Source: Parvularcula bermudensis HTCC2503 (lineage in GTDB: Bacteria; Pseudomonadota; Alphaproteobacteria; Caulobacterales; Parvularculaceae). From it: DNA of 64,000 nucleotides. The DNA lies in NCBI RefSeq assembly GCF_000152825.2, contig NC_014414.1:124001-188000 (forward strand). Reading direction: 5' to 3'. A model generated the notes under the pieces. It was not told the origin of the DNA and searched no databases. It was given only the letters and a program-made list of their open reading frames with translations. Made by a program: the position numbers and the translations under genes. Shown in pieces: positions 46,749 through 51,014 of this stretch; the stretch's first letter is position 1, and every line of letters begins with the position of its first letter.

Positions 46749-47173
46749 GTGAATTCACGACATTATTTGAGAGAAATAAAATCAATCATCGATGAAGTTT
46801 GTGGTGAAGCCACTTTGCATGTGTGCATTGAAGCTTCGCATCCTTCCACCTTAGGACGACCATCTGACCAGCTCGTTGAACTCTTAATGAGTGAAAATTT
46901 CGGCAGCACCAATGGGATGAAAGTACATTTCATTCCAGATCGTCTCTCTGTGCCCCCACTTGAAGGCCATATTCTTTCCATAGGCGGACCACGCTCTAAT
47001 GTTATTTCTCGTATCGCGATGGAGTATGAAGTCAATTTTCTAAATGAAACACCATTTTATCGGCGCTACACAGGTGCTCGCTTTGACCTCGATTACATAC
47101 ATACAACAAGAAGAGATTACGAGGGACGACTTCTTTCAGATGTATCTACGTTAGACGATACTGCAATTTGGTC
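46749..47173 (+). pseudogene. 5' part of IS-interrupted large NAD(P)/FAD-binding-like protein
   Basis: The GTG at 46749 has GGGAGG nine bases upstream. The frame runs for 142 codons and then enters the IS element at 47174. The base composition is far more AT-rich than the flanks. The N-terminal region includes ILSIGGPRSNVISRIAMEYE, a GGPxSN-type motif I cannot assign to a family. Without the element the frame would continue directly into the segment from 48430, giving about 1001 residues. In its present state this fragment would make a short product of about 152 residues ending in IS sequence. Confidence 0.75.
47170..47173. repeat. Left target-site copy (GGTC)
   Basis: Four bases before the IS left end. 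The right copy at 48430-48433 reads GGCC, so the duplication is imperfect (3 of 4). IS3-family elements of the IS407 type make 4-bp duplications. Confidence 0.55.
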
Positions 47174-47213
47174 TGCCTCCCGAAAAGTGGTCCGGTTGAT
47201 GTGTTAGACTTGG
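47174..47213. repeat. IS left terminal inverted repeat
   Basis: Begins TGCCTCCCG and contains GTGGTCCGG and GTTAGACTTGG. It matches, with one gap and several substitutions, the complement of 48391-48429, which begins TGACCCCACG. Confidence 0.7.
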
Positions 47214-47234
47214 CTCCATGGAAGGAGCTGAGGA

Positions 47235-47513
47235 ATGGGACGGAAGAGACGAACGGCCGAGGAGATCATCGGTCATTTGCGAGAGGTCGAGGTGCGCCTG
47301 GCGAAGGGCGAGACCATCGGGATTGCCTGCCGGGCGATCGGTGTGACCGAGCAGACGTACTATAGGTGGCGACGGGAGTATGGCGGTCTGAAGGTCGATC
47401 AGGCGAAGCGGCTTAAAGAGCTTGAGAAAGAGAACCAACGCCTACGGAAGGCTGTGTCGGATCTCACGCTGGACAAGCTCATTCTTTCTGAGGCCGCAAA
47501 GGGAAACTTCTGA
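47235..47513 (+). CDS. IS3-family transposase OrfA
   Basis: A helix-turn-helix DNA-binding subunit of 92 residues: KRRTAEEIIGHLREVEVRLA, then GIACRAIGVTEQTYYRWRREYGG, followed by a leucine-zipper-like helix (KRLKELEKENQRLRKAVSDL) for dimerisation. It ends with the slippery heptamer AAAGGGA at 47498-47504, in the correct phase (A AAG GGA) for a -1 shift into OrfB. Confidence 0.93.
   Translation: MGRKRRTAEEIIGHLREVEVRLAKGETIGIACRAIGVTEQTYYRWRREYGGLKVDQAKRLKELEKENQRLRKAVSDLTLDKLILSEAAKGNF
47391..47504 (+). promoter_or_regulatory. Programmed -1 frameshift region of the IS transposase
   Basis: The heptamer A_AAG_GGA (47498-47504) is a canonical slippery site. A -1 slip on it joins OrfA to the OrfB frame (mod 3 shift verified by codon phase), giving an OrfAB transposase of about 380 residues. 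A downstream stimulatory structure was not looked for. Confidence 0.6.
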
Positions 47514-48376
47514 GCCCCGACCGCCGTCGGAAATGCGTCGATCACGTCACGAAGGAGCATGGCGTCTCAGAGCGCCGTGCCTGCGAGGTGGTGGGTCAGC
47601 ACCGTTCGACCCAGAGGAAGCGTCCTTCGGGCCGTCCTGGCGAGAAGGCGCTGACCGGTGCCATCATTCAGCTAGCTGAGCAGTATGGCCGCTATGGCTA
47701 TCGCCGGGTGACTGCATTGCTCCGGCGCGACGGATGGCACGTGAACCAGAAGCGGGTCTATCGCATCTGGCGGCGGGAGGGGCTTAAAGTACCGCAGAAA
47801 CAACCGAAACGCGGGCGCCTATGGCTGAACGATGGGTCGTGCGTGCGGCTTCGGCCGGAGCGCCCGAACCACGTCTGGAGCTACGACTTCGTCCAGGACC
47901 GGACCCATGATGGAAGGGTCTATCGGATGCTCTGCATCATCGACGAGTTCACGAGAGAGTGCCTCTCGATTCGCGTCGAGCGAAGGCTCAACTCGCAAAA
48001 CGTGCTCGAAGAGCTCTCTCAGCTGTTCCTCATCCACGGGCCACCGGAGAACATTCGCTCCGACAACGGACCAGAGTTCATCGCTACGGCTGTCCGGGGA
48101 TGGCTCGGCAGGCTGGGCGTGACGACACTGTATATCGAGCCTGGCTCACCATGGGAGAACGGCTATTGCGAGAGCTTCAACTCGAAACTCAGGGACGAGT
48201 TCCTGGACCGGGAAATCGTCTATACACTGAAGGAAGCGAAGGCCCTCATCGAGTGGTGGAGGCGCCACTACAATCAGCTGCGGCCACACTCATCGCTGGG
48301 GTACAACCCGCCCGCACCGAAGACCATCTTGCCCGCGGGGCTCCCGCCGCCTTACTATGAAGGTGCGGCGGCATGA
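47504..48376 (+). CDS. IS3-family transposase OrfB (DDE integrase catalytic domain)
   Basis: Catalytic part of the transposase, normally made as OrfAB by the -1 shift at 47498-47504; an internal GTG at 47588 could give a shorter OrfB. The HTH_21-type segment (YGYRRVTALLRRDGWHVNQK, RVYRIWRREGLKVP) precedes the RVE core. The catalytic residues are D in VWSYDFVQDRTHDG, D in IRSDNGPEFIA, and E in SPWENGYCESFNSKLRDEF. All three are present, so the element may still be active. Confidence 0.93.
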   Translation, partial: KLLSPDRRRKCVDHVTKEHGVSERRACEVVGQHRSTQRKRPSGRPGEKALTGAIIQLAEQYGRYGYRRVTALLRRDGWHVNQKRVYRIWRREGLKVPQKQPKRGRLWLNDGSCVRLRPERPNHVWSYDFVQDRTHDGRVYRMLCIIDEFTRECLSIRVERRLNSQNVLEELSQLFLIHGPPENIRSDNGPEFIATAVRGWLGRLGVTTLYIEPGSPWENGYCESFNSKLRDEFLDREIVYTLKEAKALIEWWRRHYNQLRPHSSLGYNPPAPKTILPAGLPPPYYEGAAA

Positions 48377-48390
48377 GCCCCGCTAACCTG

Positions 48391-48429
48391 CCAGGTCTAA
48401 CGCTACCGTTGGACCACCTCGTGGGGTCA
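48391..48429. repeat. IS right terminal inverted repeat
   Basis: Imperfect inverse of 47174-47213. It ends GTGGGGTCA immediately before the right target copy GGCC. Confidence 0.7.
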
Positions 48430-48433
48430 GGCC
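48430..48433. repeat. Right target-site copy (GGCC)
   Basis: Imperfect copy of GGTC at 47170-47173 (one transition), placed so that the host frame joins as ...ATT TGG YCA GCC CAT TAC. Confidence 0.5.
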
Positions 48434-51014
48434 AGCCCATTACTATTTTGATAAGATACGAGCATTCAATTCTAAATTTGATGACGGTAATTCATCTAGA
48501 GGCATAAATTTATTCAGCGTTGCACGAACGATCAATTGTGGAACAAAATCTCTACCTTCTCTATCCGCCTCCCTAGATATCCCAGGTATGTCAAAAATTA
48601 ACGACTTTGTTATTTATGACAATTTTGTTGAAACAGTGTTGCCAAATGTTTTTTCTGACAATTTCAATAATAATGTTTTGATAATACTTGCAGGATTGAG
48701 AGATTTGGGAACATTAACTTCGGTTCTACAAATATCTGAGTTTCAATATTACTCGCAACTACGCCAACATTTGATAAAATGGCATTCAGAAAATCGCCAA
48801 ACCGCCATTCAGCGCGCATGGAGCGTGATTCGCCCGCTGAGCAATTTATTTATTGATTCAAATGTGAAACATTCACTTCGTGATAGTGGTCATTTTGACG
48901 AAGGTAATTTCACTGATGATGATCCGATCATCGATGACAATAATGTATTAGACGCACTTAGTAAGCGCAGTAAATACAGAGAGATAAACAAGAGATCAGT
49001 CAAATATTATGTATCCCCTCACCCCCACCCGAACGCATCCACTTCGCCGGTAAAACACAAAGTAAAGAAGTATAATCAGGCTGAAAAAAACAAAGAATTC
49101 CACAAAGAATTAAAAGATCAATACTACACTAATGCTGCTAGCAATAATATATCTGTAAAAATTGATGTCATCAATCATCAACAGATCTTAGACGCAATGT
49201 CCGTTCAACGTGATGATTTGCTTAGAAGACATGATATTTACGCGCTGGGCTGTTTCGAAAAAAAGAAAACTGTTTATACACAGCAGGCCCGCGCACTTAC
49301 TTTAATTCACGCCCTTTTTAAGGCTGGTAAAATTGCGAAGGGAACGAAAATTGGAATTGTGGGAGGGGGTATTAGCGGGATCGCTGCTGCGATAGCCGCC
49401 AAAAAGGTTGGCGCGCGCGTGGTCGTGGTTGAAAAAGAGGAAAATCTCATTCCTATACAGCGGGACTGCTCACATCGCTACCTCCATCCACATGCATATG
49501 ACTGGCCCGCAGCTTGGTGTAATGAAAATAATTCTGGTCTTCCGATTGACGAATTGAACTGGGAAGCAGGCACGGCCAAAGAAGTCACCGAAACACTCGA
49601 AGATAAATTCAAGAAATTTGTAAATAAGTCCAACGAAACGGGCGATTTAAAAGAAATCACATTCTATACGTGCTGGCCAGCACGAATGCTGCTGTTCGAT
49701 CGCGTCAATAAAAAACACGTTCTGTCAAAACGAGCATTTGATCGTGATGGAGAAAACTGGCGGCTTTTCGAAAGGGACCCTAGTTGGTCTGGTGTGGTAG
49801 ACGAATGCACTCCAATAAGTGACGAATTTCGTGCCGAAAGAGAGCAATGGAAATCTGCTGCCAGTAAGCTTATCCGTAGAATTCGGCATGGCGATATCTC
49901 GCTACCCCCGCCATATCTCTCCCCGAAAGGAAGAAATGGTATAAACGGGCAAACTCCCATATTTTGGAATGGACAAGAACATTTCACCTTTAAAGGAAAA
50001 GAAATATCCGCAAAGGCATTTCCCGATGATGATATCAATCCTGATTTTATTGTAGATTGTGATATACTTATATTTGCGACTGGTTTTGGCATTGAGGACC
50101 CACGAGATTCCATCTTAAATGATCTTAAAAATCATTTCGGTCACAAAAAAGAATTTGACGAAATAGTTGAAAAAAGAATCAATAAACTTCCATTAAAAAA
50201 TAATGGATATTGGGAAAAAGACCGCATCAATGAAGAAAAGAGTCTTACTAATACAATTCATGAGACGGACATAAAAGAAAATACACACGACAAACCGCCA
50301 AAGCTGTATGTTGTTTCTGGCAGCGGAGACGGTGCGTTAATAGATATACTAAGATTGCTTATCTTAGATTTTACGGGCCCTGAGTACCATCGAGATTTAT
50401 TAGACAAGCTCAACGCTTTACTCTTTCCGAGACAAGCTGTTGGAGTGTGGCTGAGTCAAAAAGATGTGCTTGTTTACGCTGAAGCCCTGAGGCGTCTTTT
50501 TAACTCAGATGATTTCAAGCGTACTGAAGGGGAGACGGATAGACTTAGCATGATAGGGCGAACGATGGCAGGGTTTGATATAGACGCATTCCTTGATCAT
50601 TTCAGCATCAATTTAGCAGACGCAGAAGTTTATAATGTTTCAATTGACCCCCAACCATTCTGGACCCCTGCATCGGTAGCGCACCGATTACTCGTCTGGT
50701 GCTTGCACAAAAAAGGGCGCGTGAGATTCGTTAGGGGGCGTGTCATCAGATATGCTGACAAACGAAGCGCTATCCAGCGAACTGTCACTGGCAAATGGCG
50801 AGATGTTGGTAACAGCGCTATCGTCGCGAGACATGGGGTCGCACGACAATCAGAAGCTTTTTTGAGAATCCAAGGCGTCTTGATCAATACGACGAGAACG
50901 CCTGGTGAAGTCGCCGCCGACGGGCGCCGATTGGTGTCTCTGCTGAGATTATCGGATCGCCTCCATCCTGAAACCGAAAAGTTCTTCCGGCACACAATCA
51001 AGCATCTGAGGTGA
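48430..51014 (+). pseudogene. 3' part of IS-interrupted large NAD(P)/FAD-binding-like protein
   Basis: The frame is open from the IS junction (48435 onward) to the stop at 51014. An internal ATG at 48588 gives 808 residues and could still be translated if transcribed from the IS. In the joined protein (about 1001 residues) the Rossmann motif KIGIVGGGISGIAAA begins near residue 447, followed by VVVVEKE; the stretch RYLHPHAYDWPAAW comes next, and CDILIFATGFG near residue 690 is the ATG motif of FAD/NAD(P) flavoproteins. A later GSGDGALIDILR motif is also distinctive. Sampled GC is 30-35% in most of the gene, near 50% at the 3' end. No family can be assigned. Confidence 0.7.

Follow-up and report, generated by a model that had tools for sequence, protein, structure and literature searches.

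At positions 48588–51014 (+) of the window—the whole 64,000-nucleotide stretch of Parvularcula bermudensis HTCC2503 DNA analysed here—lies an open reading frame (ORF) of 808 aa. A first-pass annotation took it for a large, foreign-looking flavoprotein of no nameable family, with an unplaced N-terminal region and three possible roles: modification enzyme, defence effector, or metabolic oxidase. What is this protein, and which of these roles suits it? The best reading is that the gene was acquired and encodes, in one polypeptide, a relative of the Lamassu flavoprotein effector; this protein is probably defensive and has an orphan N-terminal region that is perhaps sensory. In this genome the gene is interrupted.

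Structure of the interrupted gene

The ORF at 48588–51014 is real, but it belongs to the larger fragment of one split gene, and that fragment begins earlier, at 48435. The interrupted gene comprises a 5′ fragment at 46749–47168 (+; 420 nt), which is an ORF of 140 codons from a GTG at 46749 and encodes part of an orphan N-terminal region, and a 3′ fragment at 48435–51014 (+; 2580 nt including the stop), which holds 859 codons plus stop and whose first ATG, GTG, or TTG, at 48588, opens the 808-aa ORF. Between them sits an IS3-family insertion sequence (IS) at 47169–48434 (+), with orfA at 47235–47513 and orfB at 47588–48376; its transposase is recognised by the Pfam models HTH_Tnp_1 and rve and by NCBIfam transpos_IS3 (E = 2e-68). 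DNA comparison finds the element in six further copies in the same genome (seven in total), 100% identical, with one being 1 base shorter. The ends of the element are placed at about 47169 and 48434 because these bound the block common to the six other copies, and the coordinates of the gene fragments follow from them. No target duplication was seen by eye at the IS ends. The insertion looks recent, since the IS copies are nearly identical and both gene fragments are otherwise open.

The locus is thus a single gene of around 1000 codons, with foreign base composition, broken by an IS3-family element. Chance does not account for it: in other families there are two intact homologues that are conserved over the full length, and both fragments are collinear with them. 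The 5′ fragment is homologous to residues 8–148 of the intact proteins (58.9% identity to the Oceanicaulis protein over 141 columns in blastp, and 48.9% to that of G468), and the 3′ fragment is 40.9% identical to the Oceanicaulis protein over 883 columns (blastp). GC content is 0.42 in both fragments, 0.61 in the IS element, and 0.59 in the window; the gene is therefore considered to be acquired. The foreign look of the flavoprotein is borne out by this difference, together with the small number of genomes of the order that carry the full-length fused form (3 of 398).

Intact relatives and their distribution

Intact relatives, in which the N-terminal region and the flavoprotein core are likewise fused, occur in two other genomes. 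Oceanicaulis sp. HTCC2633 carries an open frame of 995 codons, giving 957 aa from the likelier start (pattern-based contig scan), and genome G468 carries a protein of 926 aa with the same order of parts and no internal stop. When 398 genomes of the order were searched, with at most two best first-look candidates scored per genome, 14 gave matches, which were full-length in three: the window genome (in pieces), G685, and G468. The G685 protein is 100% identical to that of Oceanicaulis sp. HTCC2633, and the two are counted as one relative. The three fused-gene genomes belong to three different families of one order.

Searches with the N-terminal region by itself added no further convincing match. 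The phylum sample yielded a match in one of 398 genomes (the window's own), and the three families yielded 1 of 105, 2 of 137, and 1 of 62 genomes, the second match among the 137 being merely the QQxRA stretch of the core in G730. At the level of the class, six of 385 genomes matched at E values up to 0.05, five of them weakly (E 0.02 to 0.05); after rescoring, these five were judged to be chance, and the two that were read by eye are a MetE-like protein and a peptide-binding protein. Few of the genomes sampled carry the fused form, and its distribution among them is patchy. The whole fused protein has no match among 50,697 phage records, nor was one found in viral contigs by pattern-based scans. 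The Oceanicaulis gene is host-like in composition (GC 0.618 versus 0.634 for its own locus). No report of the fused form was noticed in the literature within reach of the search, which excludes most subscription papers.

The flavoprotein core

The core lies at 49281–50357 (+) and matches the PADLOC LmuA model PDLC03858 at E = 1.3e-51 in the window fragment and at 1e-55 and 3.4e-53 in the intact relatives. Three controls (L003, L004, and L025), which were brought in as weak matches to the core and look like ordinary flavoproteins, did no better with the same model than 1.8e-4 (the others: 0.0092 and no match). An Agrobacterium plasmid protein matches PDLC03858 over its full length (E = 0). Its operon is annotated as encoding an ABC-three component system protein, a middle component, and an AAA family ATPase, and is read as LmuA, LmuC, and LmuB, that is, as a Lamassu-type operon.

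Fifteen cores were compared (three fused, two LmuA, and ten others), and an ordered signature emerges: QQxRA, GxGxxG, RxxHPxxYDWP, GFGxE, YW, and GxGDG. In the window the same order is read as QQARA (from 49281), GGGISG (49362–49379), RYLHPHAYDWP (49476–49508), FATGFG (50073–50090), NGYW (50202–50213), and VSGSGDGALIDILRL (50313–50357), in which VSGSGDGALID begins at 50313; all are on the plus strand. The motifs named in the first-pass annotation, among them GxGxxG, the ATG-type motif (FATGFG), and GSGDG, are present, and its estimate of about residue 447 for the Rossmann motif agrees with residues 447 and 448 in the intact homologues. Patterns of the QQxRA, GxGxxG, and HP..WP types, which allow small variants, occur in all 15 cores (G472 is without a strict GxGxxG). 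All six patterns occur in 12 of 15: the SGxGDG form is missing in G771, G683, and G472, and GFGxE is also missing in G472; GxGDG proper is present in every core. None of the three controls contains any pattern besides GxGxxG. A tree built from these cores unites the three fused proteins in a single clade (100/99), nested in a group of eight with the two LmuA proteins, the ATPase-paired cores, and G574 (100/100); branching inside this group is weakly settled (80/78 at the next fork).

We conclude with high confidence that the C-terminal part of the protein is the flavoprotein core of the LmuA family. The first-pass annotation could name no flavoprotein family: for the C-terminal half there is now such a name (LmuA-type, PDLC03858), but the N-terminal region stays an orphan. 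One review includes a double-Rossmann dehydrogenase among effector domains (PMC10586767).

Pfam NAD_binding_8 scores above cut-off in the core (27.1 versus 21.9 bits), and by analogy with known flavoprotein families GxGDG would make the second contact with FAD, as in glutathione-reductase-like flavoproteins; the core presumably binds FAD. A housekeeping flavoenzyme was considered and rejected: the matches listed from Pfam, NCBIfam (up to 25 listed), and a PDB profile search (up to 60 listed) are short, mostly of 30–60 residues, and centre on the dinucleotide-binding motif. The full-length housekeeping match that would speak for such an enzyme was accordingly not seen among them. A true flavin monooxygenase (FMO) or Baeyer–Villiger type (BVMO) was rejected as well. 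These class B flavin monooxygenases resemble the core in their FAD-type GxGxxG motif; however, the core is without their FMO and BVMO fingerprints in all 15 cases, including FxGxxxHxxx(Y/F) (0/15), and there is no FMO family among the window protein's 13 Pfam matches. Given the fingerprint result, 'FMO' in 'Lamassu-FMO', which we take to be the name for Lamassu with a flavoprotein LmuA, is a label and not demonstrated chemistry.

Relationship to Lamassu

Fused proteins and the flavoprotein type of LmuA share the same core motifs in the same order and fall within one supported group of the tree, but several features separate the fused genes from Lamassu. LmuB was found in none of the three fused-gene genomes (G000, G468, and G685), whereas in a control record this query picks up an LmuB of 30% identity (E = 2.6e-91), and no candidate ORF for LmuC was noticed by eye beside the fused genes. 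The core is at the N terminus in LmuA, whereas in the fused proteins it is C-terminal to the 400-residue orphan region. The C-terminal half of LmuA is missing from the fused proteins: the profile alignment to LmuA covers residues 19–271 of 836, and 228–230 residues follow GxGDG in the fused proteins versus 592 and 578 in the two LmuA proteins. This C-terminal region (50358–51014, +, in the window) shows strong conservation among the three fused proteins, can be aligned in part with stand-alone cores, and is far shorter than that of LmuA; profile alignments to stand-alone and ATPase-paired cores go beyond the point where those to LmuA stop, reaching columns 898 and 892 of the 948 in the query. 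With no LmuB found and the C-terminal half of LmuA missing, membership of Lamassu was rejected. The same review describes the C-terminal domains of LmuA as variable and as a possible docking station (PMC10586767).

Gene neighbourhoods of the core

Twelve non-Lamassu core neighbourhoods were read and selected proteins scanned, the resulting counts having no matched random control; the G010 core, on a 3.4-kb stretch, was excluded. TIR, SIR2, or methyltransferase genes are near the core in 3 of the 12 (G468, G574, and G646). The repeated association with anti-phage genes anticipated for a defence gene is thus seen to this extent, but it holds for only one of the three fused genes, that of G468. 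Within L027:2788-17556, this gene is flanked by genes for a 1564-aa TIR-nSTAND1-WD40 protein and, on the opposite side, for a TIR protein that ends in Glyco_hydro_108 and peptidoglycan-binding domains; a serine recombinase is also encoded on that second side. The G574 locus (L030:2632-17403) is a probable defence island: it encodes a SIR2-NACHT protein, the core, a type II methyltransferase, and a TIR protein, and a gene there looks helicase-like by eye; in G646, a TIR protein is encoded nearby. Integrase, recombinase, or relaxase-like genes occur in 3 of the 12 neighbourhoods (G472, G468, and G771), although the G771 gene encodes a DUF3363 protein that itself matches a relaxase model only below cut-off.

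The fused genes of the window and of Oceanicaulis are flanked by apparent housekeeping genes; no defence gene was noticed beside them, and PADLOC gave no match for three window neighbours or one Oceanicaulis neighbour. These flanks count against a defence island for both genes.

A P-loop ATPase gene directly precedes the core in 2 of the 12 neighbourhoods (G730 and G473). The two-gene units, at L029:6856-10278 and L031:7657-10700, consist of the ATPase followed by a stand-alone LmuA-type core. Their ATPases are 35% identical to each other, and neither matches PADLOC; that of G730 has a Pfam ORC-CDC6-like match (27.9 bits, cut-off 27), and that of G473 has no Pfam match. P-loop ATPase and stand-alone core form a candidate defence pair. 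Their core is homologous to that of the fused proteins and lies in the same supported group of eight, but the ATPase is encoded separately, unlike the arrangement in the single-chain fused proteins. The fused N-terminal region matches the G730 ATPase at E = 1.4, which is not noteworthy, and the G473 ATPase is not among the matches listed.

Three-gene rows occur in 3 of the 12 neighbourhoods; their third proteins, each about 880 aa long, are homologous, with 24%–27% identity between loci. In these rows (L035:8148-13595, L036:8291-13370, and L037:8205-13373) the core comes first, followed by a small protein (about 260 aa) and then the large one. The large proteins of L036 and L037, and a similarly placed one in L033, have no Pfam match.

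The N-terminal region

Some 400 residues ahead of the core are conserved in all three fused proteins, including GGPRSN, a DRLSVP stretch, YDxFxET..PNVFS, and GxRxLG(T/S). In the window, GGPRSN is encoded at 46983–47000 (+) in the upstream fragment, and the remainder of the region, at 48435–49250 (+), holds YDxFxETxLPNVFS, LIIxxGLRxLGT, and WSVIRPL, all conserved in alignments. The GGPxSN-bearing region that the first-pass annotation left unplaced has indeed no convincing family match: in Pfam and NCBIfam every match falls below cut-off, the strongest being at E 0.07; solved structures give nothing beyond a TFIID subunit at E = 0.89; and plasmids give no match, or E values of 4 or more. Its motifs may resemble a domain of actinobacterial proteins. 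Two AlphaFold2 runs on the three-row alignment reached mean pLDDT values of 33.3 and 37.6, too low for the models to be relied on, the second showing only a low-confidence beta-alpha pattern, and the region is probably alpha/beta with a GGPxSN loop. It may perhaps be a sensor, a role suggested because it occupies the place of the separate partner proteins of other systems; with no convincing match, the word 'sensor' rests on position and analogy.

Proposed function and alternatives

On balance, the intact relatives would seem to be defence devices made of a single polypeptide. Sensing or gating would fall to the N-terminal region, as it does to LmuB and LmuC in Lamassu and as it may to the separate ATPase in the sister two-gene unit. 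A trigger would set off unchecked redox chemistry in the flavoprotein half, which might deplete NAD(P)H, generate peroxide, or oxidise a target, and this would stop the metabolism of the infected cell through killing or growth arrest. A more specific proposal, which we put forward tentatively and would not call probable, is that an FAD-dependent killer module is under the direct control of an undescribed alpha/beta ligand-sensing domain, marked by its GGPxSN and LGT motifs, the whole being a single-polypeptide anti-phage system; elsewhere, the same module would serve Lamassu, the pair with a P-loop ATPase, and an operon of a third type.

Among the three roles first proposed, defence effector is now the best supported. 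The protein could instead be an FAD oxidoreductase of metabolism or secondary metabolism, an accessory gene product whose N-terminal region is an unusual domain for a substrate or a partner. Of the three fused genes, two do lie among apparent housekeeping genes, and the core has a real dinucleotide-binding motif; against this, no full-length enzyme-family match is found among the matches listed, the best core match is a defence effector model with low background in the controls, no biosynthetic neighbours were noticed, and the distribution is patchy. A metabolic role is therefore considered unlikely. There is only a slight chance that the protein is an FAD-dependent enzyme modifying protein or nucleic acid: some flavoproteins modify macromolecules, which is the sole point in its favour, but the family matches are weak and confined to the dinucleotide motif (GIDA at 18.6 bits with a cut-off of 22.1 in Pfam; an MnmC-type model at 15.7 bits with a cut-off of 600 in NCBIfam). 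Slighter still is the chance of an orphaned LmuA working with a Lamassu complex encoded elsewhere. The grouping of the core with LmuA in the tree would suit it, but the missing LmuB with a positive control, the alignment that ends near residue 271 of 836, and the short stretch after GxGDG (228–230 versus 578–592 residues) leave this explanation largely refuted.

The window copy is a separate matter, and it is likely to be a decaying pseudogene with no present function. The IS insertion splits the gene, and the 3′ ORF begins inside the N-terminal region, from a start without a clear ribosome site (by eye), so that it retains merely part of that region. Both fragments are nevertheless otherwise open, the IS copies are nearly identical, and the 3′ fragment still encodes the entire core. 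The whole protein of the window copy is probably non-functional, and confidence in a present function for the copy as a whole is low. Decay of this one copy is compatible with the defence reading of its intact relatives.

If the defence reading is correct, the flavoprotein effector would not be bound to the SMC-like Lamassu machine but would be mobile and able to work with several partners. On the more specific and tentative proposal above, it would be a portable redox effector whose chemistry differs from that of nucleases and NADases. The fused proteins would hold sensor and effector in one chain, so that the action of the flavoprotein during infection could be tested with one gene instead of three. 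The two intact sequences would also provide a seed for annotating the N-terminal domain.
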